Shown here piece by piece: positions 16,260-32,087 of a stretch of DNA of 36,463 nucleotides (position 1 is its first letter; each line of letters begins with the position of its first letter). Both the position numbers and the translations under genes were made by a program. Origin of the DNA: Clostridia bacterium (GTDB lineage: Bacteria > Bacillota > Clostridia > Christensenellales > CAG-138); the NCBI GenBank assembly GCA_017388175.1, contig JAFOTD010000027.1, positions 1 through 36,463 on the forward strand, given 5' to 3'. A model generated the notes under the pieces. The model was not told where the DNA came from. It ran no database searches and saw only the letters and a program-made list of their open reading frames with translations.

Positions 16260-19200
16260 ATGAGAAAAACCCTTTCTCTGGTCCTGGCAGTCCTGATGAT
16301 GCTTGCGCTGCTTCCCGCAGTCAAGCTTTCGACGGCTTATGCCGAAGACGCAGTGCCGACCTACAAAAAGGTCGAATCTGCCGAAGATCTGACTGACGGA
16401 TCGTACCTCGTTGTCGTCGACAGCAAGAAGCTCGACGGTGCCTATTATACCTTCAACGGTACCACGGCTACGTCGAACAACCTTGTTCGCGTTACGGACA
16501 TCGTCGACAACACGATCGAAGGCGACTATACTGCGAACGAGATCGAAATCGCTGTGGTCGAAGGCGGCTACACGCTCCAGAACAGCGCAGACAAGTATCT
16601 CAGTGCAGGCGACGGCAGCAATACCGTTGTTTTCGGTGACGAAGCGGTCGTCAACGGCATTACGCTTGGCAGCGATCTTAAGGTTTCGATCACCATGACC
16701 ACCGATGTTGCCCGCGAGTTCAAGCTGAACAATTCCAATGATCAGCCGTTCTTCCGGTACTACAAGGCCAGCTCTACCGGATCGAACTACTATCTGCCTT
16801 CCCTTTATAAGAAGGTAGAAGCGGAAGAGCCGGATCCCTCTCCCTCGACCGATCCCGAACCCTCTCCCTCGACCGAACCTGTTGATCCCGATCCCGAGAC
16901 CACAGCGATGGAGCTTGTGGAGAACGTCATCAACGGCAACGAAGTTGTCATCTTCTATCCCACCGACAGCAAGGTGATGACAGCGGAAGATTATCTCTAC
17001 AACAACAAAAAGCATGAGCTCGTCGCCGCAGACGCGACGCTGGCAGACGGCGTTCTGGCAGTTCCCGACGAGGCAGTTCGTCTGACTGTTGAAGTCACGT
17101 ACAACGCCGGCGATACCGAATTGCCCGAGCTGAACGTCAAAGGAACGGAAGGCACCTATAAGTATGCGTTCTGCACCGAAGACGATCTGTACCTTTATGC
17201 GGACGGTACGAACGTGCAGCTCGTAGAGCGCACCGAAGAGAACGAAGCGAACACGCTCTTCCAGCTTGAACCGGCAGAAGGCGGCTTCTACATCAAGTGC
17301 GACAGCGCAACCTACAACGGCAAGGCGCAGTACCTTGAGTATTACAACGGCTACTTCAGTGTATACGGTTTCAACGACAGCACGCCGAACATCTACACCT
17401 TCCAGTTCTACGCGGAACCCGAAGATGAGCCCATTGTCGAACCGACCGGCAACACGATCATTCTGTTCACGAACGACGTACACTGCGGCATCCGCGACGG
17501 CTGGGGTTACGCAGGTCTTGCGGACCTCAAGAAGACCCTCGAAGCAGAAGGCAACGAAGTCATCCTCGTTGACGCGGGCGACCACGTCCAGGGTGGCCCG
17601 ATCGGCTCCCTCACCCAGGGCGAAGCGATCATCGACATCATGAACTTTGTCGGTTATGATCTTGCAACGCTCGGCAACCATGAATTCGACTACGGCATGG
17701 ATCAGTTGTTTGCTCTCACCGAGCAGGCTGAATATCCGTACGTTTCCGCAAACTTCGTCAAGGTCGAAGGCAACGAGCCGGTGCTCGACGCTTACAAGAT
17801 CTTCGAAGCAAACGGCAAGAAGATCGCGTTCGTCGGTATCTCCACCCCCGAATCGATCACCAAGTCCACGCCGACGTACTTCATGAACGAAGACAACACC
17901 GCTTACGTCTACGGCTTCTGCCAGGATGCAACCGGTGAAGGCGTCTACACCGCAGTGCAGAATGCAATCGATGCAGCCAAGGCGGAAGGCGCGGATTACG
18001 TCATCCTCGTCGGTCATATGGGTATTGACGAGCAGTCCAGCCCGTGGATGTCCACCGAAGTCATCGCGAACATCACCGGCGCAGATGCATTCATCGACGG
18101 TCACAGCCACAGCGTCATCAACGAGGTTGTCGAGGATAAGAACGCCGGCGGCAAAGGCGTTCTCCACGGCCAGACCGGCACGAAGCTTGCGAACATCGGC
18201 AAGCTGACGATTGATGCAGACGGCGGTCTCACAATGGAGATCCTCCCCGCATCCGAGAAAGTCAAGGACGATCCGGAAACCGACGAATACATTAAGGGCA
18301 TCGAAGACGAGTTCAACGCTCTGCTGAACACCGTTGTTGCGCACACCGATCATGATCTCACGATCCTTGATCCGGATACCAACAATCGTGCAGTCCGCAG
18401 CAAGGAAACCAACCTCGGTGACCTGTGCGCGGATGCGTATCGTTACATGTTCGATGCGGATGTCGCGTTTGTCAACGGCGGCGGCGTTCGTGCGAACATC
18501 CCGACCGGCGACATCACGTTCCAACAGATCATCAACGTTCATCCGTTCGGCAACACAGCGGTGCTCGCGGAAGTCACGGGTCAGCAGATCCTTGATGCAC
18601 TCGAGATGGGCGCACGCGTCAACCCGGGTGAGAACGGCGGCTTCCTGCAGGTTGCGGGCCTGAAGTACGAGATCCACAACTATATTGAGCCGAACTGCGT
18701 TGTCGGAACGGATAAGATGTGGGCAGGTCCCGTCGATGCGTCGCTTCCGTACCGCGTCCAGAACGTTCAGGTTCTGAACAAGGAAACCGGCGAATACGAA
18801 GATCTCGATCTCGAAAAGAAGTACACGCTTGCATCCCATAACTACATGCTCATGGATATGGGCGACGGCTTTGCGATGTTCGGACCGAACATTACCATCC
18901 TTGAGGATTCCGGCAAGCTCGACAACCAGGTCCTGATCGACTACATCCAGTCGATGCCCGAAGTGGACGGTGTCCATCAGGTTGAAGGCTACACCGATCC
19001 GAAGGGCGAAGGCCGTATCAAGATCTTCACCGAAGTTCCGAAGGTTCTCCCGACGTTCTACGGCGAAGATGTGATGGCTGCCGATGTACTCGAAGAAGTG
19101 GACGGCGAAGAGCTCTATCGCTACGACGTGAAGGTCAAGAATTTTGATCCGGAAACCGAAGTTGTCGGCATGCAGATGTTTGTTGCATTCGATAACGAGG

Positions 19201-20153
19201 CGCTTGAATTCGTCAACGCGTACTCCGTGTTCGAAGGCAACCTTGGCGTCAATGAAGCGGACGGCGTTCTTTCCTTCGCATGGGCGACCAGCGGCGAGGG
19301 CGTCACGATCGAAGATGAAACGGTTATCGTATCGTTCTACTTCAAGCTGATCAAGCCGCTCGAAGACGGCGAAGCTGTTGAATTCCTCTTCGTTCCCTCT
19401 GCAAACGACGGAATGACCGGATACTCCTACGTCGACGGTGAGACCGTTGTTGAGGCAGCGGAAGTCAGCACCGAAGACGGCAGCATCACTTTCTCCACGC
19501 CGAGCGAACTCACCATCTACGGCGAAGACGTCATGTCGCTTGACGTGATGACCGTTGAAAACGGCGAACGCCTCTATCGTTATGATATCCGCGTGAAGGA
19601 TCTGCCCGCGGCAGGTCTCAAGGTCAACAGCGCGCAGATCTTCCTCGCATGCGACGAGCTTCTCGAGCTCCGTAAGTCGGAAGGCATGTTCGACTGGACC
19701 ATGGGCGAAAAGAACGGTAAACTGATGTTTGTCTGGGCGTCCGAGACCCCGGTCGAACTCAAGAACGACGACATCGTCCTGACGCTCTACTTCGCGGCTC
19801 CGAATGCAAAGGGCGGCGAGGTCGCACAGATCGCGTTCACGATGAACACGCTGAATACGCTCAGCGCAATGTCGATCGTCTATGGCGGCGAAGTGCTCGA
19901 GATCGAAGCCTCCACCGTTGACGGCAGCATCACCTTCGCGGAAGTCACACTCGGCGATGCAAACTGCGACGGTCATGTCACCGCGGCTGATGCAGCGTTG
20001 ATCCTCCGCTCCCTCGTCGGACTCGCTGAGCTCTCCGAGCAAGGCGCGCTCAATGCAGACGTTGACGGCGACTGCGAAGTCACCGCAGAAGATGCGGCTC
20101 TGATCCTCCGCTACATCGTTAAGCTGATTGAAGTCTTCCCCGTGGAAGAATAA
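16260..20153 (+). CDS. Secreted multidomain 5'-nucleotidase-like metallophosphoesterase with cohesin-like and dockerin domains
   Basis: A 1297-residue exported protein. A signal peptide ends near residue 28 (STAYA|ED). Next is a module starting YKKVESAEDLTDGSYLVVV (about 34-190), a Pro/Ser/Asp linker (PSPSTDPEPSPSTEP) and a second module (about 220-390, VMTAEDYLYNNKKHELVAAD). A calcineurin-like metallophosphoesterase follows (about 398-650) with TNDVHCG, DAGDHVQGG, LGNHEFDYG and GHSHS metal ligands. The 5'-nucleotidase C-terminal domain is at about 700-900 (FVNGGGVRANIP). Two cohesin-like beta domains occupy about 925-1225, each starting FYGEDVM or IYGEDVM. A type I dockerin closes the protein (1230-1297), with paired calcium loops DANCDGHVTAADAALILR and DVDGDCEVTAEDAALILR. 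It probably hydrolyses extracellular nucleotides. AAGGAGG precedes the ATG. Both N-terminal modules recur in the protein at 27649-30318. Confidence 0.93.
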   Translation: MRKTLSLVLAVLMMLALLPAVKLSTAYAEDAVPTYKKVESAEDLTDGSYLVVVDSKKLDGAYYTFNGTTATSNNLVRVTDIVDNTIEGDYTANEIEIAVVEGGYTLQNSADKYLSAGDGSNTVVFGDEAVVNGITLGSDLKVSITMTTDVAREFKLNNSNDQPFFRYYKASSTGSNYYLPSLYKKVEAEEPDPSPSTDPEPSPSTEPVDPDPETTAMELVENVINGNEVVIFYPTDSKVMTAEDYLYNNKKHELVAADATLADGVLAVPDEAVRLTVEVTYNAGDTELPELNVKGTEGTYKYAFCTEDDLYLYADGTNVQLVERTEENEANTLFQLEPAEGGFYIKCDSATYNGKAQYLEYYNGYFSVYGFNDSTPNIYTFQFYAEPEDEPIVEPTGNTIILFTNDVHCGIRDGWGYAGLADLKKTLEAEGNEVILVDAGDHVQGGPIGSLTQGEAIIDIMNFVGYDLATLGNHEFDYGMDQLFALTEQAEYPYVSANFVKVEGNEPVLDAYKIFEANGKKIAFVGISTPESITKSTPTYFMNEDNTAYVYGFCQDATGEGVYTAVQNAIDAAKAEGADYVILVGHMGIDEQSSPWMSTEVIANITGADAFIDGHSHSVINEVVEDKNAGGKGVLHGQTGTKLANIGKLTIDADGGLTMEILPASEKVKDDPETDEYIKGIEDEFNALLNTVVAHTDHDLTILDPDTNNRAVRSKETNLGDLCADAYRYMFDADVAFVNGGGVRANIPTGDITFQQIINVHPFGNTAVLAEVTGQQILDALEMGARVNPGENGGFLQVAGLKYEIHNYIEPNCVVGTDKMWAGPVDASLPYRVQNVQVLNKETGEYEDLDLEKKYTLASHNYMLMDMGDGFAMFGPNITILEDSGKLDNQVLIDYIQSMPEVDGVHQVEGYTDPKGEGRIKIFTEVPKVLPTFYGEDVMAADVLEEVDGEELYRYDVKVKNFDPETEVVGMQMFVAFDNEALEFVNAYSVFEGNLGVNEADGVLSFAWATSGEGVTIEDETVIVSFYFKLIKPLEDGEAVEFLFVPSANDGMTGYSYVDGETVVEAAEVSTEDGSITFSTPSELTIYGEDVMSLDVMTVENGERLYRYDIRVKDLPAAGLKVNSAQIFLACDELLELRKSEGMFDWTMGEKNGKLMFVWASETPVELKNDDIVLTLYFAAPNAKGGEVAQIAFTMNTLNTLSAMSIVYGGEVLEIEASTVDGSITFAEVTLGDANCDGHVTAADAALILRSLVGLAELSEQGALNADVDGDCEVTAEDAALILRYIVKLIEVFPVEE

Positions 20154-23744: not shown

Positions 23745-24229
23745 TCACCGTTCGTACCGCTTGATCAGGCTCTGAAGTTCTCTCTGCTTGTTCGCCGGGA
23801 GATCGCCCATCATGTTCCGAAGTTTTTCGATCATGCCTTCATCGCGAGAATAACCGTCTTCACGGCTATAGCGACCCATGCGGTCACGGCGCGAGGAATA
23901 ACGGCTGCGCTCGGTGCGCTCATCGTCTGCGTACTTCGGCTCGGCGTAGGACATACGACCATCGTCATACGACCCACGATAAGATCCACGATAAGAACCA
24001 CGATACGATCATGTTCTTTGTGCCGCGCTCTGCCGTGCTTCTTCGCTGACGCGCTGCAGATCAATATTCATCTGCGCGATGAATTTATTGACAGCTTTTG
24101 CCGACTTGTACTGCTTGTGCGCGAAATCCTTGACAAACGTATCAAATTCAAGGAAACTCTCGCAGCATCTTGCGACGACTTCTTCTTCCGCGTCATAGCG
24201 CTTTTGCAGTTCCTTCTTTTTCCGAACAT
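23745..24229 (-). pseudogene. Broken small gene: one frameshift and one in-frame TGA; coiled N-part and SYRG-repeat C-part
   Basis: From the ATG at 24229 the frame reads MFGKR and is then lost. Adding one A to the A5 run at 24221-24217 restores a sensible 73-residue helical protein (MFGKKKELQKRYDAEEE at its start, FIAQMNIDLQRVSEEA near its end). It stops at TGA 24011-24009. Beyond that TGA the same frame continues without a break: three SYRG repeats, SYDDGR, an Arg/Tyr/Ser-rich stretch and a charged helix IEKLRNMMGDLPANKQ, ending at 23745. Together this gives about 161 residues with one nonsense codon (CGA to TGA would explain it). The C-terminal helix resembles small phage-like Bacillota proteins, as far as I recall. 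An independent 69-residue product from ATG 23954 is possible but has no ribosome binding site. Confidence 0.6.
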
Positions 24230-24245
24230 TGCGTTTCCATCCGTT

Positions 24246-24644
24246 CTACCGTTCCCGTTCGAGTTGTTCAACGACAAGCAAATCTGCAGGCAGCCAGTTC
24301 ACGCTGCGAAGACGATCCCTGGAAAGCCATGCTGCGGATTCATGTTCGAGGAGCTTCAGCTCGCCCGATACAACCGATGCGAGGAAGCATTTCATCGAAA
24401 GGTGAAACGTCGGGTACTCGTATTCGACCGTCATGAAATGCCGCTCCACACGGATCACGGCGGACAGCTCCTCGTGAATCTCGCGCACGATCGCCTGTTC
24501 CGGCGTCTCGCCGGGCTCAATCTTCCCGCCCGGGAACTCCCAGTAATCCTTATACGCGCCGTATCCGCGCTGCGTTGCGAAAATCTCCGATCCGTTCCCG
24601 ATGATCGCGGCGGCGACACGCACCGTTCTTTTCGGCTGTTCCAT
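24246..24644 (-). CDS. MutT-type Nudix (8-oxo-dGTP diphosphatase-like)
   Basis: MutT enzymes hydrolyse oxidised nucleotides such as 8-oxo-dGTP to keep them out of DNA. The 132-residue length is typical. The start MEQPKRTVRVAAAII is MutT-like. The Nudix box is GGKIEPGETPEQAIVREIHE followed by ELSA; the final Gly of the motif is Ser here, while the metal-binding REIHEE is intact. The C-terminus DLLVVEQLERE fits the family. It starts 5 bases after the ABC transporter stop, using a ribosome binding site inside that gene's end, so it is the last clear gene of the minus-strand peptide operon. Whether it has a role in that system or is a passenger is unknown. Confidence 0.85.
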   Translation of the reverse strand: MEQPKRTVRVAAAIIGNGSEIFATQRGYGAYKDYWEFPGGKIEPGETPEQAIVREIHEELSAVIRVERHFMTVEYEYPTFHLSMKCFLASVVSGELKLLEHESAAWLSRDRLRSVNWLPADLLVVEQLERER

Positions 24645-24649
24645 TCCTG

Positions 24650-26374
24650 TCAGCCCTCTTTCCCTGCCGTTTCAATTACGCCGTCCTCCGTAAACTCCAA
24701 CACGCGGTCGCAGATGGAAAGCGCCGCCGGACGGTGGGTCACGATCACGACGGTCTTGTCCGTCATGCTGCGAAGATTTTCCAGAAGGCGCTTTTCCGTT
24801 TCCGTATCAAGCGCGCTCGTCGCCTCGTCAAGAAGCAGAACCGGACTGCCGGAAAAGATCGCCCTCGCGATGGCGATACGCTGCATCTGACCTTCGGACA
24901 GTCCCGCGCCGTGCTCGCCGAGCAGCGTATCCGCGCCCTGCTCGAGTTCTGAAACGAACGCATCGGCGCACGCAATGCGAAGCGCGTCCTTCAGTCTCCG
25001 TTCATCCGATACAGCGACAGGATCTGAGAAGCTGACGATCTCACGAATCGTTCCGCTCATCAGGAAATTCCCCTGCGGCACGTACGCAAACAGTCTGCGG
25101 AATGCGCTTGTCAGCTCCCGGACTTCCCCTTGTCCGTTCATATAGTACCGGCTGCCGGTGTCCGGCTGCATCACGCACATCAGCAGCTTCAGCGCCGTGG
25201 ATTTGCCGCACCCGCTCGTGCCCGTAAACGCCGTATATTCGTCTTTTTTGATTTCGAGGGACAGATTCTTCAGCACAATCGGCATCTCGGTTTTCTCCGT
25301 CTCTGAGAGGCTCTCCGTAACGGGATAGTAGGCAAAATCGACGTTTAAAAGGCCGAATGCGGAAAGACTGTCCGCATAAAAGTCCTGCATTTCGGAAAGC
25401 GGCAGCGCTTCCGCGCCGTCTTCCTTGAATTCCTCCGCCTCCATCAGACGCTCGGCGCTCGCGAGCATTGCGTAGTATTTGGGCAGATATCCCGTGATAT
25501 TGGCGATCGGCGTCTGAATCTGTGTAATCAGCTGCATGATCGCCGTCAGCGTTCCGAAACTGACCGTTCCGATCAGAATGCCGTATCCGCACCAGCCGAC
25601 GCCGAGCAGATACATGCCCATCATCGCGGCGCCGAAGCCGACGTTGCAGAGATTCGAGAAGCGAATCCTCCGCATGCGCGCGCTTCTGTGCGCCAGCATT
25701 TTCTCCGCCGCATCCGTCCGCGTCTGTGCTTCCGCGGCAAAGGAACGGAGCATCAGAAGGCTTTCGATGCGTTCCTGCAAAAAGACGCGCAGCCGACCGT
25801 CAGATTCCTGAACGTTCTTATGCAGCCGCTTCATGACTTTTCGAAACAGAATCGTAAAAGCGCCGATCACGAGTCCGCCCGGAATCAGAACCAACGCAAA
25901 GCGCGGCTCGATGGCGATCACCATTGCGAGCGCGCTGACGAGCTTCACCGCCATGCCGACGAGTCCTGGCAGAATCTCCACGTACCCGTCCGCAACGACG
26001 ACCGTATCGTTGGTCAGTCGATTCATCCATTCGCCGGAATGCACGGCGCTGACGCGCAGATAATCCTTTTTCAGCAGCGTATGCAGCAGCCGTTCTTTGA
26101 ACACGTTTTCAAACGTCGATTTGGAGCGTTCCGTGAGCCATCTCAGAACCGCGCGAAGTGCAAGCTGCGCAACCGTCAGTCCCACAATCAGAAGGACGTA
26201 ATGCCAGAATCCGTTCCGGTTCCCCGCAACGGCAGAATCAACGATGCCGCGAAGCAGCAGCGCATACAGAACGCCGGAAGCGCCCTGTAACGCCTGTACA
26301 AGGAGCAGCCCGACAATATACCACTTCCTGCTTCCCGGCACGTTCATGAGCCATTTTCGCGCGGAATCCTTCAT
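24650..26374 (-). CDS. ABC transporter, fused permease and ATPase (exporter type)
   Basis: This half-transporter has 574 residues. Residues 1-about 310 are a six-helix membrane domain (WYIVGLLLVQALQGASGVLY onward), and about 340-570 are the nucleotide-binding domain. The ATPase motifs are complete: Walker A GTSGCGKST (about 385-393), Q-loop YVPQGN, signature LSEGQMQR (about 490), Walker B VLLLDEATSALD (about 508) and switch His in VIVTHRPAAL. There is no N-terminal C39 peptidase domain, so any peptide it exports must be trimmed elsewhere. It follows a PqqD-like gene and an HprK-like gene downstream of a short peptide gene, which suggests peptide export. It would act as a homodimer in the membrane. 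AAGGAT precedes the ATG. Confidence 0.9.
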   Translation of the reverse strand: MKDSARKWLMNVPGSRKWYIVGLLLVQALQGASGVLYALLLRGIVDSAVAGNRNGFWHYVLLIVGLTVAQLALRAVLRWLTERSKSTFENVFKERLLHTLLKKDYLRVSAVHSGEWMNRLTNDTVVVADGYVEILPGLVGMAVKLVSALAMVIAIEPRFALVLIPGGLVIGAFTILFRKVMKRLHKNVQESDGRLRVFLQERIESLLMLRSFAAEAQTRTDAAEKMLAHRSARMRRIRFSNLCNVGFGAAMMGMYLLGVGWCGYGILIGTVSFGTLTAIMQLITQIQTPIANITGYLPKYYAMLASAERLMEAEEFKEDGAEALPLSEMQDFYADSLSAFGLLNVDFAYYPVTESLSETEKTEMPIVLKNLSLEIKKDEYTAFTGTSGCGKSTALKLLMCVMQPDTGSRYYMNGQGEVRELTSAFRRLFAYVPQGNFLMSGTIREIVSFSDPVAVSDERRLKDALRIACADAFVSELEQGADTLLGEHGAGLSEGQMQRIAIARAIFSGSPVLLLDEATSALDTETEKRLLENLRSMTDKTVVIVTHRPAALSICDRVLEFTEDGVIETAGKEG

Positions 26375-26407
26375 CTTTTTCGATCCTTCTCTTCGTCCGT
26401 TAAACCG

Positions 26408-26668
26408 TTATTCCTCTATCGCTCCGACGTCACGAAGTTTTTGAATCGCGTCCTTTACGTCGCGTTCGATCGCGCCGTCCGGTGCGGAAAAACGCGCACG
26501 CATCGCCGCAACGATTTCAGCTTCCGTCGTTTCGCATTGTAAGAGATCCAATACTACGCCGAGGGTTTTATTCCCGCGAACCATGCCGGAAAACTTCGCG
26601 TTCCCGGAGGGAACAAGGACAGATTCATCCCCCATGCTGTGAAATATAAAGTCTTTGCTGAGTTTCAT
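26408..26668 (-). CDS. PqqD-like peptide-binding protein (RiPP recognition element)
   Basis: This 86-residue protein resembles PqqD: an N-terminal beta hairpin (SKDFIFHSMGDESVLVPSGN), the motif FSGMVRGNKTLGVVLDLLQ (N-x-T-x-x-x-x-x-x-L pattern typical of the family) and a winged-helix rest, with ETTEAEIVAAMRARF then VKDAIQKLRDVGAIEE. PqqD-type domains bind the leader of a precursor peptide and present it to a modifying enzyme. The ATG is 3 bases after the HprK-like stop, so the two are tightly coupled. With the short peptide upstream, it defines a RiPP-like locus. Confidence 0.82.
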   Translation of the reverse strand: MKLSKDFIFHSMGDESVLVPSGNAKFSGMVRGNKTLGVVLDLLQCETTEAEIVAAMRARFSAPDGAIERDVKDAIQKLRDVGAIEE

Positions 26669-26671
26669 TCT

Positions 26672-27409
26672 TTATCCTTTCATTGCCGACGAAGCGACCT
26701 TTGCCGCCTCCGGATCCATATTGCAGCCGAGCCGCCAGAGCGGTACGATCGACGTCAGCCGGTCGATCAGACGCAGCGTTTTCATCATCGCCGCTGCGTC
26801 AATCGGACGGTAAATCTGCTGCAGCAGCATCGGATAGGCCTCGCCCGCCGTGATTTTGCGGATGCCGTTCTGTTCGGCGCGTTCGAGAATACACACGCCC
26901 TTCAGCGGAACCGCGATATTCGCGCTCAAACGGTGCTTTCCGTCCCACGGCGTTCCGAACGCGGTGGCGCCGCTCTCCGAAACGCGGATCAGCGGCTTAT
27001 CATCGTTCACCATTACCGCACGTTCTTTGAACAGCTCCCGCCAGAGTCGCGTATGCGTGCTTTTTCCGGTTCCGCTTTTCGCCGTAAAAAGATACGCCTC
27101 ACCGTCGACGGCAATACAGGAACCGTGCATCAGAAACGTATCGAAAGCCGGCATGCGCTCGGCAATCGCGCGATACACCGCAAGCGATTCAAGATAACTG
27201 TCCGGATAGTTCCGGGCGGGCTGATTCACAAGCTGATCCTCGCGTCCCATCATGACCCGCTCGAATGCGATATCCTCCCGCGTCGTGCAGACGGAGAAAG
27301 AAAACGCGTCGTCTGCCGTGCGATAGGTTTCGCAAAGCAGGTGTACCCGTTCATACGTCGTTGAGATCTGAATCGTTGTATCCGCGAACCGGTAGTTTTC
27401 TGTAATCAT
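26672..27409 (-). CDS. HPr kinase-like (serine kinase-type) protein of the peptide cluster
   Basis: The 245-residue protein has an HprK-type P-loop FTAKSGTGKSTHTRLW (about 107-122), then VMVNDDKPLI and GTPWDGKHRLSANIAVPLKG, which are landmarks of the HprK-like kinases found beside PqqD genes and in some lasso-peptide clusters. In the lasso peptide paeninodin such a kinase phosphorylates a C-terminal Ser; that is family knowledge, and the activity here is inference. Canonical HprK regulates sugar metabolism, but the N-terminal HprK domain is absent, so this is not the metabolic enzyme. I chose ATG 27409 (MITENYRF); a TTG at 27484 is in frame but lies inside a hairpin. Confidence 0.82.
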   Translation of the reverse strand: MITENYRFADTTIQISTTYERVHLLCETYRTADDAFSFSVCTTREDIAFERVMMGREDQLVNQPARNYPDSYLESLAVYRAIAERMPAFDTFLMHGSCIAVDGEAYLFTAKSGTGKSTHTRLWRELFKERAVMVNDDKPLIRVSESGATAFGTPWDGKHRLSANIAVPLKGVCILERAEQNGIRKITAGEAYPMLLQQIYRPIDAAAMMKTLRLIDRLTSIVPLWRLGCNMDPEAAKVASSAMKG

Positions 27410-27470
27410 GAATCCGTTTTCCCGAATCTCCGCCTGTTTGCGGCGGCTTGCCGTTTCCCTTAAATGATGC

Positions 27471-27497
27471 GGGGGCGAAAACAACTGTTTCCGCCCC
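27471..27497 (-). promoter_or_regulatory. Hairpin between the peptide gene and the kinase gene
   Basis: On the minus strand, GGGGCG (27497-27492) pairs with CGCCCC (27477-27472). Four more pairs lie inside after one mismatch, with loop AGTT. No U-tract follows, so it is not a classic terminator. It could stabilise the upstream peptide mRNA or reduce downstream expression. Confidence 0.6.
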
Positions 27498-27520
27498 GAT
27501 TGTTTCTATTCAGCTTTTGG

Positions 27521-27619
27521 TTACGGCAGCTCGGGCAGTTCGATATCACTCGGGTTGGTGATGATATCCGCGCTCTCAAATGCGATAACTTCCATATCGA
27601 TCTTCTCGTACGTTTCCAT
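27521..27619 (-). CDS. 32-residue peptide, putative RiPP precursor ending DIELPELP
   Basis: The gene starts at ATG 27619 behind a perfect AGGAGG, 6 bases away, and encodes METYEKIDMEVIAF, then ESADIITNPS, then DIELPELP. A longer upstream frame is rejected because only this ATG has a ribosome binding site. I read it as a leader (1-23, acidic, no Cys) plus a short core rich in Pro, Glu and Leu. It has no signal peptide and no double-glycine site. HprK-like, PqqD-like and ABC transporter genes follow, which is why I call it a precursor. The same last eight residues end the lipoprotein at 30357. Ser and Thr in TNPS are possible kinase targets. No product class is known to me. Confidence 0.7.
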   Translation of the reverse strand: METYEKIDMEVIAFESADIITNPSDIELPELP

Positions 27620-27648
27620 AGTTTTCCTCCTGAGAATACGCTGTATAA

Positions 27649-30318
27649 TTACCGGTTTCGTCCTGTGAGATACGACTGTGCGGCCGTCGCATACGCGTAA
27701 ATTGCGCATGCGGCGTTTTGCGGCGCCTCGGTATTGTATGCGTCAAGCATGCTCTTTACGTAGGACAGTCCGGAAACATTTACGGTTGCTTCGCCGTTGT
27801 CGGTCGTGACTTGAATCGTATGCGTATCGGCAAGTTTGCTTGCCTTGACGTTCGTGATCTCGACCATATACTTGCTGCCGCTTCTCGCGGCCGTATAGGT
27901 TTCGCCGTCGACTACAACGTCGAACGCGCCGTTGTACGACGTATTAACCTTGAAATAAACGCGGATTGCCGTTTCGCTGTCTACGATCAGAGAATGCGTG
28001 ATCGCAGTGATATCGCCGCCGGTGATGTTCTTCACTATCGCATAATCCGCAACTGCCGTCTTGATCGCGTCGATATCATAGCTTTCGGCATAGAACGTAT
28101 TCATCTCCGCGTAATGCTCGGAAAGCGTCCAGCCTTTGATTCCCGCCTGGAAAATCTGCACGTAGTGACCGTAGTCCGCAACGGAGTGCGCAAGCGTGAT
28201 CAACTTTTCATCCGTAATCGTGCCGTCATCGACCGCCTTGTCAAACGCCTTGAAGTAGTCCGCAACGGAGTAGGTCTTTTCGATCGTGAGTCCGTCGCCG
28301 TAGTGGAACGTTGCAGTAATCGGTTCCGCCATCTGCATCGCATTCACGAAGCAGGTAAAACCGTCGCCGTCAAGCTCCGCGCGCTCGGTAACCGGGCCGT
28401 GCTCGATCGCAAAGGTCATGTAGCTTTCGCTGTAATCAACGCCTTCGATCTCGGGAAGATCCATATGGAACTTAACGCCGATCTGACCGGAGAGCAGCAG
28501 AGACACCGTTCTGAACGCCGGTTCGGAGGGAACGACTTCGGTATCCAGTCTGTACAGATAGATCGGGTTCTTCACACTGGAATCCTCCTTGTAGCAGGAG
28601 AACAGACCTTGGGAATTAAAGCGGAAATACTTGTTCGTATCTTCCCCCTGGGAAGCCGCAACGACCGCGCCGTCTTCGCCGAACGTGAGCGTAAACACGC
28701 CGCGGAGGTCATTGGTTTCCTGCGTTCTCAGATTGTTGCCCGATCCCGCCGCGTACAGATAACCGTTGTTGAGCGGATCAAAGAAGGTCCAGCCGTTTTC
28801 CGCGTCGCCGCCGAGCGTAAGCTCATAGACCAAAAGCTGATCGACCGCTTTCGTCGCGATGATGTCCACGTCAACGAGTGCCTTGTCGCCCTCCAGCATG
28901 ATCTCCGCCGCACGGCGGTTGTTCGCCCACTGCTGCGCGAGCGCGTACGCTTTGTCTTCATTTATTCCGACCACGATATAAGTGTCGCCCGCGGTCAGAT
29001 CCTCCGCGGAGGTGATCAGGGTGTAGCTTCTGGTCACGAGCACCTTCCACTGTGCGTGAAACGTCACGTCGCCGGTGATCGCAACTTCCGCGCCGGGCGC
29101 GTAGACCGTATCGTCTCCGTCCATCTTCCATCCGGCAAACACCTGTCCTTCAGGCGCGGTGAAGCCGTTTTCCGGAAGCGTAAACGGGCTGGTGGCGTCC
29201 GTGACGGCATCCATCGTGCCGCTGCCGCCGTTTGCGTCGAACGAAACGGTGTAGACTGCCTCGGGCGTCGGGCCTTCGCCGTTCTCGGAGAAGAACTGGA
29301 AAGTATAGATCGTCGTATTGGTGTCCATGCCGTAGACGGTGAAATATCCGCTGTAATACTCAATGTACTGCGCCTTGTTGTTGTGAGTTGCAGTGTCGCA
29401 CTTGATATAGTAATTGTCGGTACCCGCCGCAGCTGTTTCGAGCTGGAAGAGCGTGTTTGCGCCCTGCTCGTCAACGAGCTGCACATTGGTGCCGTCCGCC
29501 ATAAGGTATTTGCCATCCGCGGTCGCAAAAGTATACTTATTGTCCGCGTCGACGGAAACGGTCAGACGAGCCGCCTCTTCGGGAACCGCGAGAACGTCGT
29601 CGGTCAGCGTGGCGTCAGCGGCGACAAGCTCGTGCTTCTTGTTGTTGTAATAGTAGTCTTCGGCGGTCATGACCTTGCTCGCCGCCGGATAATAAATGAC
29701 GACAACGTCGCCGTTGGACGGAACGCGCTTGAGCGTCATGTCCGTGAACGTCGGCTCGGGCGTTGCAGTCGGCGTCGGCGTCGGTTCCGTGCCGCTTCCT
29801 TCCGTCTCCCAGATGATCTCGATCTTTTCGAGATACATCGCGCCGTAAGCAGAACGTAAGCCGATATATGCATATTCGCCGCTGATCATCAGTTCCGTGC
29901 TCGTGCCTTTTACAATCGTTCCGAGCAGCGTGCCCTGGTTCGAGCTGTTATACAGATCGGTCGCCGCGGAGTACGCTGTATCCTTGCCGTATACGTTCAG
30001 CGTTCTGCCGTTTGCGGTATTGGAGTTCCACGTGACGGAGATCTTCTTGACAGTGCCTGCGGAACCGGTCGTAACGATACCGCTGTTGTTGTTGTTGGAA
30101 CGAAGCTGAACGGAGTCGTTTCCGCCCGCGCTGTTGCCCGCATAAGCGGCGCCGGAAGTGCCATTTTTGCTCCACGTAATGTAGCTCGTGGTAGTAGCCC
30201 CTGTGAACGATCTGTCGATCGTATCGGTCGTTTCGTCCGCAAACGCTACTGCGGGCAAAATCGACAGAACCATACATGCCGCAAGCAGCAAGGCGAATAG
30301 TTTCCTGTGTTTCATCAT
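27649..30318 (-). CDS. Secreted multidomain protein sharing modules with the 5'-nucleotidase-like protein
   Basis: An exported protein of 889 residues. The signal peptide is MMKHRKLFALLLAACMVLSI and onward to AFA|DE. Residues about 30-170 form a Thr/Ser/Asn-rich beta domain (SYITWSKNGTSGAAYAG), then a TPTPTATPEPT linker. Module B is at about 200-350 (VMTAEDYYYNNKKHELVAAD). An InlB-type repeat is at about 360-430 (VSFDANGGSGTMDAV through VTFHAQWK). Module A is at about 435-600 (YTLITSAEDLTAGDTYIVV). The C-terminal region of about 270 residues (RTVSLLLSGQIGVKFHMDLP onward, ending AQSYLTGRNR) recurs in secreted Clostridia proteins as I recall. No catalytic motif is seen; adhesion or binding is likely. 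No sortase motif or transmembrane anchor is seen at the end. AGAGGAGAGG precedes tandem ATGs (30318, 30315). Confidence 0.88.
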   Translation of the reverse strand: MMKHRKLFALLLAACMVLSILPAVAFADETTDTIDRSFTGATTTSYITWSKNGTSGAAYAGNSAGGNDSVQLRSNNNNSGIVTTGSAGTVKKISVTWNSNTANGRTLNVYGKDTAYSAATDLYNSSNQGTLLGTIVKGTSTELMISGEYAYIGLRSAYGAMYLEKIEIIWETEGSGTEPTPTPTATPEPTFTDMTLKRVPSNGDVVVIYYPAASKVMTAEDYYYNNKKHELVAADATLTDDVLAVPEEAARLTVSVDADNKYTFATADGKYLMADGTNVQLVDEQGANTLFQLETAAAGTDNYYIKCDTATHNNKAQYIEYYSGYFTVYGMDTNTTIYTFQFFSENGEGPTPEAVYTVSFDANGGSGTMDAVTDATSPFTLPENGFTAPEGQVFAGWKMDGDDTVYAPGAEVAITGDVTFHAQWKVLVTRSYTLITSAEDLTAGDTYIVVGINEDKAYALAQQWANNRRAAEIMLEGDKALVDVDIIATKAVDQLLVYELTLGGDAENGWTFFDPLNNGYLYAAGSGNNLRTQETNDLRGVFTLTFGEDGAVVAASQGEDTNKYFRFNSQGLFSCYKEDSSVKNPIYLYRLDTEVVPSEPAFRTVSLLLSGQIGVKFHMDLPEIEGVDYSESYMTFAIEHGPVTERAELDGDGFTCFVNAMQMAEPITATFHYGDGLTIEKTYSVADYFKAFDKAVDDGTITDEKLITLAHSVADYGHYVQIFQAGIKGWTLSEHYAEMNTFYAESYDIDAIKTAVADYAIVKNITGGDITAITHSLIVDSETAIRVYFKVNTSYNGAFDVVVDGETYTAARSGSKYMVEITNVKASKLADTHTIQVTTDNGEATVNVSGLSYVKSMLDAYNTEAPQNAACAIYAYATAAQSYLTGRNR

Positions 30319-30356
30319 ACCTCTCCTCTATCTCCCTCTGTTCTATTAAAATCTTA

Positions 30357-30830
30357 TTACGGAAGCTCGGGCAGTTCAATGTCGCCGCTGTGATCTTCCG
30401 TAGGCTTCGGCGTCGGAGCCTGCGTCGTCTGCGGCGTGGCTGTGGGATTCGTCCCTGCCGTAGGGGTCTGCGTTGTCGCAGGTTTCGGCGTCGCGGACGC
30501 TTTTGCCGTCGGCGCGGTTCCCGGCGCAGTCGTTTTCTCCGGCGCATCGGTTTCCTGCGGCTGCTCCGTCTGCGGTGCTTCGGTCGCGGTCGGTTCCGAC
30601 GTCTTTGGCGGAACCGTTGGAAGATCGGTGCCCTCACGGCCCGGCTCAGTCGAAATCACCTCGTCCTCGGAAATCTCAATCGGTTCGGCGCTGCTGTTCT
30701 GCGGCGCGTCCGGGGTGGACGCCGGATTTGTCGGATCCTTCGATCCGGATGTGCAGCTTCCTGCGCAGCCGATCAAGCCGATCAGCATGAAAAAGCATAT
30801 GACAAGAATCCAACCTGTTTTTTGTTTCAT
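30357..30830 (-). CDS. Lipoprotein with Pro/Thr-rich stalk and the precursor-like tail DIELPELP
   Basis: The 157-residue lipoprotein has a lipobox ending in Cys22 (LIGLIGC). Residues 50-74 read PIEISEDEVIS, then TEPGREGTDLPTVP, similar in pattern to the 32-residue peptide (VIAFESADIITNP, then ELPELP). A long low-complexity stalk of Pro, Thr, Ala and Gln follows (about 76-145), and the protein ends DIELPELP. The tail codons differ from those of the peptide gene at three bases, all synonymous. It heads the minus-strand string leading to the peptide, kinase, PqqD and transporter. GGGGGAA precedes the ATG. It could be a membrane-displayed substrate of the same machinery; the function is unknown. 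Confidence 0.78.
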   Translation of the reverse strand: MKQKTGWILVICFFMLIGLIGCAGSCTSGSKDPTNPASTPDAPQNSSAEPIEISEDEVISTEPGREGTDLPTVPPKTSEPTATEAPQTEQPQETDAPEKTTAPGTAPTAKASATPKPATTQTPTAGTNPTATPQTTQAPTPKPTEDHSGDIELPELP

Positions 30831-31018
30831 TCGGATTCCCCCTTTCGTTTCGCTTCCTTTGGAAATGATGAGCGTTCGGACCGTTTTTCAAGTCGCGCAC
30901 AGGCATTGTGTCTCCGGTTGAGCAAACGGGAATTGAATAAAATACCGTTTGAACGCGTATGATTATTCGGCTTGTTGCTTCCATTCGGCCATAATGACCC
31001 AACACTCCATCTTAATTT

Positions 31019-31047
31019 ATCTTATCATATCTGTCCTTTGTTTGCAA
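31019..31047 (-). promoter_or_regulatory. Promoter for the lipoprotein/peptide operon
   Basis: Minus strand: -35 TTGCAA (31047-31042), 17-base spacer, -10 TAAGAT (31024-31019). Confidence 0.6.
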
Positions 31048-31141
31048 TCATTAATTCCATATTATATTATCAGTTCCGGTGCGAAACGCTGTCCCTCGTT
31101 CTGCCGCCGCGCGTTCGGATTCGATTGCTTGAAAAAAACCT

Positions 31142-31170
31142 TTTACGCATGCGCAATCGTATGGTATAAT
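31142..31170 (+). promoter_or_regulatory. Promoter for barnase-barstar
   Basis: -35 TTTACG (31142-31147), 17-base spacer, extended -10 TATGG-TATAAT (hexamer 31165-31170). Confidence 0.75.
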
Positions 31171-31186
31171 GCATTTGGAGGAACAT

Positions 31187-31810
31187 ATGAAACGTACGAA
31201 TCGCATTCTTTCCGCGCTTTTTGCGCTCTTGTTGTTGCTGACGCTGTTCGGCTGCTCTTTCAGATCGGACACCGTTTCCCGGACGGAGCCCCCGTCTGAA
31301 ATCGTCGATCTTCCGATCTACGTTCCCGAAGCGGAAACGGCTTCTCCGGCTGGCGAAGAAGCGTCTGCCACGGCGCAGTCCGCGCAAATTCCCGACGAAC
31401 CTATACCGGCGGAGACGCCGATCGCTTCGCCGACGTCTGTACCGGCCGATACGCCCCTCCCCGTTTCGGAGGACGGCGAATACTGGACAAAGGACGAGGT
31501 TGCTCTGTACATCCACCTTTTCGGGCATTTACCGAAAAACTACATTACCAAGAACGAAGCGCAGGCGCTCGGCTGGACCGGCGGATCCCTTGAGCCGTAC
31601 GCGCCGGGCTGTTCGATCGGCGGCGGTTATTTCGGCAATTATGAGGGGTTGCTGCCGTCAAAAAATGGCCGTTCCTATACAGAATGCGATATCGACACGC
31701 GCGGCGCAAAAAGCCGCGGCGCAAAGCGCATCGTGTTCTCAAACGACGGTCTGATCTATTACACCGATGACCACTACGAATCGTTTACGCTTTTATACGG
31801 GGAGGAATAG
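31187..31810 (+). CDS. Exported barnase-family ribonuclease, lipoprotein-anchored
   Basis: The 207-residue protein starts MKRTNRILSALFALLLLLTL and has lipobox FGC (Cys about 22). A Pro/Ala/Ser-rich stalk follows (to about 95), then a barnase domain: YWTKDEVALYIHLFGHLPKN, YITKNEAQALGW, the SIGGGYFGNYEGLLP loop, and the catalytic set Glu in YTECDI, Arg in RGAKRIVFS and His in DDHYESF. Guanyl-preferring RNases of this family cleave single-stranded RNA; barnase itself is freely secreted, whereas this one carries a lipid anchor and stalk. GGAGGA before 31187 decides the start. A barstar-like gene follows by one base, which supports an active, toxic nuclease. Confidence 0.92.
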   Translation: MKRTNRILSALFALLLLLTLFGCSFRSDTVSRTEPPSEIVDLPIYVPEAETASPAGEEASATAQSAQIPDEPIPAETPIASPTSVPADTPLPVSEDGEYWTKDEVALYIHLFGHLPKNYITKNEAQALGWTGGSLEPYAPGCSIGGGYFGNYEGLLPSKNGRSYTECDIDTRGAKSRGAKRIVFSNDGLIYYTDDHYESFTLLYGEE

Positions 31811-31811
31811 T

Positions 31812-32087
31812 ATGGAATTCATCATCATCGACGGACGGCGCATGACCTCGGTCGAGGCGACGCACGCGCACCTTGCAAGGACGCTGCGGCTGCCGGAGTA
31901 TTACGGACACAACCTTGACGCGCTGCACGACTGTCTCACCGATCTTTCCCGCGACGTGTGGATCATTCTGATCAACGGCGACATGATGGACGAAGCGCTC
32001 GGCGATTATGCCGTGAAGCTTCGGCGTGTCTTTACGGACGTCGGCAATCTTCCCTACGCCTGCCATTTTGTCGAGCATCGCTCCTGA
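31812..32087 (+). CDS. Barstar-like ribonuclease inhibitor
   Basis: The 91-residue cytosolic protein belongs to the barstar family. It starts MEFIIIDGRRMTSVEATHAH and carries LPEYYGHNLDALHDCLTDLS (about 31-50), the helix and loop that plug the barnase active site, with an acidic residue matching the inhibitory Asp. It ends LPYACHFVEHRS. It protects the host from the nuclease encoded just upstream before export. GGGGAGGA lies at the end of the nuclease gene and the ATG follows its stop by one base, so the two are translated together. A strong terminator ends the pair. Confidence 0.93.
   Translation: MEFIIIDGRRMTSVEATHAHLARTLRLPEYYGHNLDALHDCLTDLSRDVWIILINGDMMDEALGDYAVKLRRVFTDVGNLPYACHFVEHRS

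Follow-up and report, generated by a model that had tools for sequence, protein, structure and literature searches.

In a stretch of 36,463 nucleotides from a Clostridia bacterium (assembly GCA_017388175.1, contig JAFOTD010000027.1; hereafter the window, meaning this whole stretch), a short leader peptide and a membrane-anchored stalk lipoprotein encoded in one gene string end in the same eight residues, DIELPELP. The ends of such peptides and of the stalks beside them tend to vary together from locus to locus, which points to a common partner outside the cell. The reading preferred here, to which we give slightly less than an even chance, is that the processed peptide and the tip of the stalk present one ligand to that partner in two forms. 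The string lies on the minus strand, in the order stalk lipoprotein, secreted protein of 889 amino acids, leader peptide, HprK-like kinase, PqqD-like protein, ATP-binding cassette (ABC) exporter and NUDIX hydrolase. The features that bear the tail are as follows.

30357..30830, minus strand: stalk lipoprotein of 157 amino acids, with lipobox LIGC, a Pro/Thr-rich stalk and the tip DIELPELP (open reading frame; orthologues; lipobox by reading).
30357..30383, minus strand: stalk tip DIELPELP-stop (codon-pattern searches, comparison of tail DNA).
30609..30629, minus strand: TDLPTVP, a tip-like sequence inside the stalk on the side nearer the membrane (regular-expression match).
27521..27619, minus strand: leader peptide of 32 amino acids, METYEKIDMEVIAFESADIITNPSDIELPELP (AGGAGG before the ATG; paralogue on contig C45; family in relatives).
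27521..27547, minus strand: peptide tail DIELPELP-stop (codon-pattern searches, comparison of tail DNA).

The shorter start of the peptide, at ATG 27619, is preferred because AGGAGG precedes it, and the mechanically called open reading frame at 27521..27709 (62 amino acids) is probably too long.

The original prediction, made from the letters alone, held that both genes end in codons for DIELPELP beneath unrelated upstream parts, and that the synonymous changes suggest selection on the amino acids; all three statements are borne out or supported. The peptide tail, GATATCGAACTGCCCGAGCTGCCGTAA, and the lipoprotein tail, GACATTGAACTGCCCGAGCTTCCGTAA, both encode DIELPELP-stop and differ at 3 of 27 bases, every difference being synonymous, while the DNA likeness of the two genes is confined to the tail, with none on either side. 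It is the amino acids, rather than the DNA, that have been kept. Nor is the motif common at protein ends, a pattern that the prediction had named as refuting it: the codon pattern for ELPELP-stop occurs at two sites in the window (0 expected from 100 shuffles) and at three in the whole assembly (1.99 Mb), all within the two families, with 0 for a reversed-pattern control, although further copies may be missing as the assembly is 75% complete. The third site is a paralogous leader peptide, MEKYEGIDLEIILFESADIITNPSDIELPELP, on another contig of the same assembly (L049:3233-3331, G000:C45), whose last 17 residues, SADIITNPSDIELPELP, are identical to those of the window peptide. No stalk gene, and no gene for a ribosomally synthesised and post-translationally modified peptide (RiPP), was called around it on this 7.6-kb contig.

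Other loci pair different tails in the same way. The types common to a peptide and its neighbouring anchored stalk are ELPEIP, WTPVI, WSPYI, ELPFVPA, GGAGxED and EGxxxDPF. The clearest come from a single genome, G019, with two loci that each have their own tail, WTPV(I/V) or WSPY(I/V): at one (G019:C15) three neighbouring genes encode a secreted protein ending ENWTPVV, a peptide ending GSWTPVI and a lipoprotein ending EEAWTPVI, and at the other (G019:C16) a lipoprotein ending ESWSPYV accompanies a peptide ending DSWSPYI. A further locus, G001:C1, has the peptide HELPEIPTDPNNP and a lipoprotein ending DIELPEIP. In the public loci found by HprK homology, the seven best within-locus matches each involve an anchored protein adjoining the peptide; these pairs are ELPFVPA/ELPFVPA, NTGGAGNED/SVGGAGTED, EGKQVDPF/EGELLDPF, ELPILP/ELPIIP and ETPIVP/ELPFVP, together with DDDITMPEI and DGDITTPEI, each with DAPIELPEI. 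Tail scores of at least 22 were found for 7 of 1,229 same-locus pairs, against 27 of 14,221 cross-locus pairs.

As pairs in a list compiled by hand were partly picked by tail similarity, conclusions on covariation rest on sets assembled blind to the tail. To count as a stalk, a protein needed an N-terminal hydrophobic segment, a length of 85 to 320 residues and a low-complexity body, and each peptide was paired with the nearest such stalk on its own strand, no more than 4 kb away. This rule provided a stalk for 24 of 104 peptide rows (one L253 open reading frame being counted twice), which scored 499 in their own pairings and 345.5 (standard deviation, sd, 23.9) when permuted, with 0 of 20,000 permutations as high. 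In this 104-row set, the stalks of G001:C1, G007:C73, G019:C15, L237 and L280 escaped the rule, and part of the genus loci had been found with the whole window peptide as query, tail included. The public loci, which are the best 80 by HprK homology among the matches listed, contain a leader peptide by profile in 34 cases; taken alone, with one pair per locus, their 13 pairs scored 291 against 206.5 (sd 20.7; 11 of 50,000 permutations), and with two near-duplicates removed the remaining 11 pairs were equalled in 33 of 50,000. The hand list of 20 pairs gave 554 against 327.9 (sd 28.3; 0 of 20,000), and six of its tips without LP gave 8 of 5,000. Co-variation of the two tails across homologous loci, the check that the original prediction had proposed for itself, was therefore positive in both tail-blind sets.

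Within the window's genus, the lipoprotein used as query matched 11 of 23 genomes at 14 places, four of which were left out as partial query coverage inside long frames, giving 10 orthologous stalk genes in nine genomes. Their tails are DIELPELP (window, G007), PIELPELP (G006, G011, G021), AIELPDFP (G013), PIELPSFP (G004), PIVLPELP (G010), and DIELPEL together with PIVLPEVP (both G012), with I-x-L-P kept in the tips of all 10 genes. The leader-peptide family is present in 25 of 151 relatives, and a complete family peptide with the same type of tail occurs in six of the nine stalk-bearing genomes: two peptides in the window's genome, DIILPELP and NELPELP in G007, DELPELP in G011, VIELPDFP in G006, NPIVLPEI in G010 and SIELPPLS in G021. 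The lipoprotein and peptide of G010, on different contigs, both have IVLPE instead of IELPE.

Several results weigh against a paired ligand. Three-frame reading by eye found no family peptide before HprK in eight genus loci (G004, G006, G010, G011, G012, G013, G021 and G022), and the 59%-complete assembly of G019, despite having the clearest tails, contains no HprK match. In only 4 of the 13 public pairs did the peptide match its own stalk best, because many tips carry an ELPxxP consensus, and mismatched pairs occur at L207 (with the tip as the rule placed it) and L259, both among these 13, at L143 (from the hand list), at L350 (from the class-wide sample) and others, as well as in G019:C16, where a second peptide ends NPNP and does not match the stalk. 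Peptide and stalk are weakly associated in the public loci (14 of 34 against 10 of 46; Fisher p 0.08), using locus sets compiled by hand, for this and the later Fisher tests, from profile and stalk-rule results. Counting the window's genome, the leader was detected in 31 of 391 genomes of the class and 3 of 398 of the phylum, and a class-wide sample of 49 regions around the other sites, with 51 profile peptides, provided one rule-defined stalk, the tip of which, DVELPFVPFD, has no clear match to its peptide's end, DIETGGDEW; an early independent set of 29 loci gave two peptides and one stalk, from this same G239 locus. Lastly, no SpI-like (S24/S26) leader peptidase was found among the string proteins with Pfam or NCBIfam. 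Hence the link between peptide and stalk, with its peptide-less loci and several mismatched pairs, is looser than first stated. The class-wide scarcity of stalks and the mismatches together mean that the stalk goes with some members of the peptide family rather than all, and that tails are shared as a strong tendency but without the force of a rule.

The stalk itself appears to occur in two orientations. Lipoproteins have an N-terminal anchor and a C-terminal motif; at L207 and L280, an inverted-looking stalk protein lies between peptide and HprK, with, by reading, a Sec-like signal, the motif after a plausible cleavage site, the stalk, and a C-terminal membrane segment. The predicted mature N-terminal motifs are IDLPFVP (L207) and DNETEMTGG (L280), and the adjoining peptides end NELPFEKV and DNETEVGG, respectively. 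Read in this way, the motif would sit at the membrane-distal end in both topologies. An LPXTG-like sorting signal was rejected as an explanation of the tail, as neither a hydrophobic stretch nor a basic end comes after it, and the motif is also found at the predicted N-terminus. A leader-like segment inside the stalk was rejected as a general feature, being present in 5 of 37 proteins (one row, G013, being in the wrong frame) against 2.7% in shuffles, with four of the five from the window's genus. An inner second ELPxxP-like copy was seen in the stalks of L224 (YETPIIP), L243 (LNMPELP), L257, L230 and the window.

The remaining features of the string are these.

27649..30318, minus strand: large secreted protein of 889 amino acids with a Listeria-Bacteroides repeat (PF09479, expectation value, E, 9e-10).
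27472..27497, minus strand: GC-rich hairpin GGGGCGGAAACAGTTGTTTTCGCCCC between the peptide and kinase genes, without a T run (by reading).
26672..27409, minus strand: HprK-like kinase of 245 amino acids (PF07475 and TIGR04249, both below cut-off).
26408..26668, minus strand: PqqD-like RiPP recognition element (RRE) of 86 amino acids (PF05402, E 3e-9, above cut-off).
24650..26374, minus strand: ABC exporter of MsbA/CydD type, permease and ATPase, 574 amino acids (PF00664, PF00005; TIGR02203 MsbA below cut-off).

The best literature match for this locus is the linear polyphosphorylated peptides (LPP) of the lpp clusters of Bacillota (Popov et al. 2026, PMC13381572), compared here as the main text of that paper describes them. 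In LPP, an HprK-like kinase adds multiple phosphates to Ser3 of the core, cleavage after T-1 is the work of an SpI-like peptidase, and the conserved set also includes an MsbA-like transporter; the biological role is stated as unknown. Both systems have a short precursor with a conserved N-terminal leader and variable C-terminus, a discrete RRE, an HprK-like kinase, an MsbA-like transporter, and a leader/core border marked by T followed by Ser (DIIT-NPS in the window, with Ser three residues after T21). The family matches of the window's kinase are below cut-off, and it has the conserved P-loop and NDDKP, with SGxGKSTH and NDDKP invariant across 19 relatives. The leaders differ, being YEKI...MEVI..FE..DIIT in the window and YxxPxVLxHQxIxFET in LPP: the consensus YxxPxVLxHQxIxFETxxS is absent from the window peptide (Y-E-K-I), and in its family, where Y, D and Ser are invariant, several relatives have YxxP while the remainder of the motif differs. 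The nucleoside triphosphate (NTP) transferase LppN was also absent among string proteins by Pfam and NCBIfam. The locus is therefore filed as LPP-like rather than as a proven LPP member, since the string lacks the leader consensus, the peptidase and the NTP transferase. A lone S24/S26-like RiPP-type peptidase elsewhere in the window's genome (L393:3703-4161, G000:C33, E 2.6e-25) is a candidate for cutting the leader in trans, and in the orthologous locus G007:C73 the peptidase by position is a 149-amino-acid protein without a Pfam match, to which 53 of the 80 public loci have a similar protein. Paeninodin-type lasso clusters, according to the same paper, have an HprK-like kinase and a split RRE, and so share the kinase and PqqD-like RRE with the window; they differ in their macrolactam cyclase and B2 peptidase, absent among the window's string proteins by Pfam and NCBIfam, and the window's PqqD-like element matched the lasso RRE TbiB1 weakly (E 0.5). 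The window's string differs from LPP by its core-bearing stalk and large secreted protein, the main text on LPP naming no lipoprotein, surface, membrane-anchored or transmembrane protein.

A stalk carrying a RiPP core was not described in the literature searched, with preprints, most subscription journals and supplementary files outside that search. In enterococci, sex pheromones and their inhibitors are near-identical short peptides that compete for a single partner, in a system involving lipoprotein genes. These offer a working analogy only, as the pheromone derives from a lipoprotein signal peptide, whereas the window's sequence would instead cap an anchored stalk on its outer side.

In the mechanism proposed for the free and tethered ligand, the PqqD-like element would bind the leader of the short peptide, the HprK-like kinase would probably phosphorylate the conserved Ser where leader meets core, a peptidase would take off the leader, and the ABC transporter would export a short acidic proline peptide, roughly NPS-DIELPELP. 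The lipoprotein would show the same sequence, leaderless, at the outer tip of its membrane-anchored stalk. One extracellular partner would bind both forms, so that the free peptide would compete with whatever the stalk tip holds, or modulate it. The tail would be the part recognised outside the cell because the stalk repeats what follows Ser. The idea that the tail is offered both free and on an anchored stalk stands, but its companion, that modification falls on the tail, is unsupported, as the LPP phosphorylation site described by Popov et al. is Ser3 of the core, which here would be the Ser preceding the tail.

The best candidate partner would be the co-encoded large secreted protein, the C-terminal ~290 amino acids of which we name surfC. 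This 889-amino-acid protein seems the likeliest because surfC recurs directly before peptides (a profile match precedes 38 of 103) and no C-terminal anchor was seen in it by reading. In the public loci, surfC accompanies the peptide (20 of 34 against 3 of 46; Fisher p 4e-7) and, less strongly, the stalk (12 of 24 against 11 of 56; p 0.014). By sequence, surfC has no convincing relative in the PDB (best E 0.4). A fuller version, in which a stalk built from either end displays the core, free and tethered ligands compete, the pair co-evolves, and the giant secreted protein's hold on the surface is thereby controlled, is a more doubtful proposition. The stalk displaying the core suggests an extracellular site of action for the peptide, on the surface of the producer, and suggests that the residues that matter are those of the tail after the conserved Ser; it may also serve as a handle for finding the partner. 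A wider principle is also suggested, in which adjacent genes encode one short ligand in both a free and a tethered copy.

Other explanations of the shared tail fare less well. Chance resemblance between short acidic proline-containing ends of low-complexity proteins is very improbable: cross-locus pairs do reach the score of 22, but the same-locus frequency, permutation tests, pattern controls and distinctive tails such as WTPVI and WSPYI all argue otherwise. The tail might also be a trace of descent with no present role, either through copying of a 3' end or from one precursor gene, and identity is indeed strongest among close relatives, with mismatches in the wider sample. This we regard as improbable, as DNA similarity ends at the tail, the changes are synonymous, different loci match different tails, and 3'-end copying would not yield a motif at the predicted N-terminus in L207 and L280.

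Two further explanations would give the tail a present function. Both tails could be substrates of one enzyme, such as the kinase or an extracellular transferase, that recognises the tail and modifies peptide and stalk alike. HprK is the commonest neighbour of the stalk, 24 of the 80 HprK loci having a rule-defined stalk no farther than 1.5 kb upstream, and in G004 and G013 the stalk adjoins HprK with no secreted protein or exporter called beside them. Yet a common substrate is unlikely, as the known LPP kinase target is the Ser before the tail (PMC13381572, main text), reading of the stalk tips shows no conserved Ser, Thr or Tyr, and the stalk is without the leader bound by the recognition element. 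Alternatively, the exported peptide could antagonise competitors through a surface target, with the stalk acting as a decoy or competitor on the producer. Such immunity by mimicry, perhaps a one-in-several prospect, would fit the export genes, the varying cores, a stalk that has the core but not the leader, and the patchy distribution of LPP, with many gains and losses, that is called typical of conflict genes (PMC13381572). Nothing shows the peptide to be toxic, however, its tight partner by gene association is the secreted surfC protein, and many loci have a stalk and HprK with no peptide detected nearby.

Some members of the leader family have other ends or settings. Peptides at L040, L041, L042, L043, L044 and L050 end TPLPETGE or TPLPETGEP, which look like LPXTG without the usual membrane segment, and no stalk sharing these ends was found. 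L366 (G252:C42:1-6200) has two leader peptides, both ending GGIELPPDWV, without a rule-defined stalk. L145, L152, L154 and L155 each have two tandem leader peptides, one per pair with an IxLP-type tail, followed by a protein of 441 or 442 amino acids, a PqqD-like protein and one of 152 or 153 amino acids; in L155 the first of these is a radical SAM protein (PF04055) and the last is S24-peptidase-like (PF00717, below cut-off).

No known RNA element was found in 24000..32000, and the hairpin at 27472..27497 was rejected as a terminator, the terminator scan having made no call there. A similar GC-rich element seems to precede HprK in genus loci, where three-frame translations look alike. Anti-phage defence was also rejected, as a system search gave only ATPase-type matches of the exporter. 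Elsewhere in the window, a secreted protein of 1297 amino acids (16260..20153, plus strand) matches part of the 889-amino-acid protein (E 1e-48), and its end is reminiscent of dockerin repeats. The stalk lipoprotein adjoins a secreted barnase-type ribonuclease (PF00545, 31169..31810, plus strand), followed by a barstar inhibitor (PF01337, 31812..32087, plus strand), and barnase/barstar-like neighbours stand next to the stalk lipoprotein in several genus loci too.

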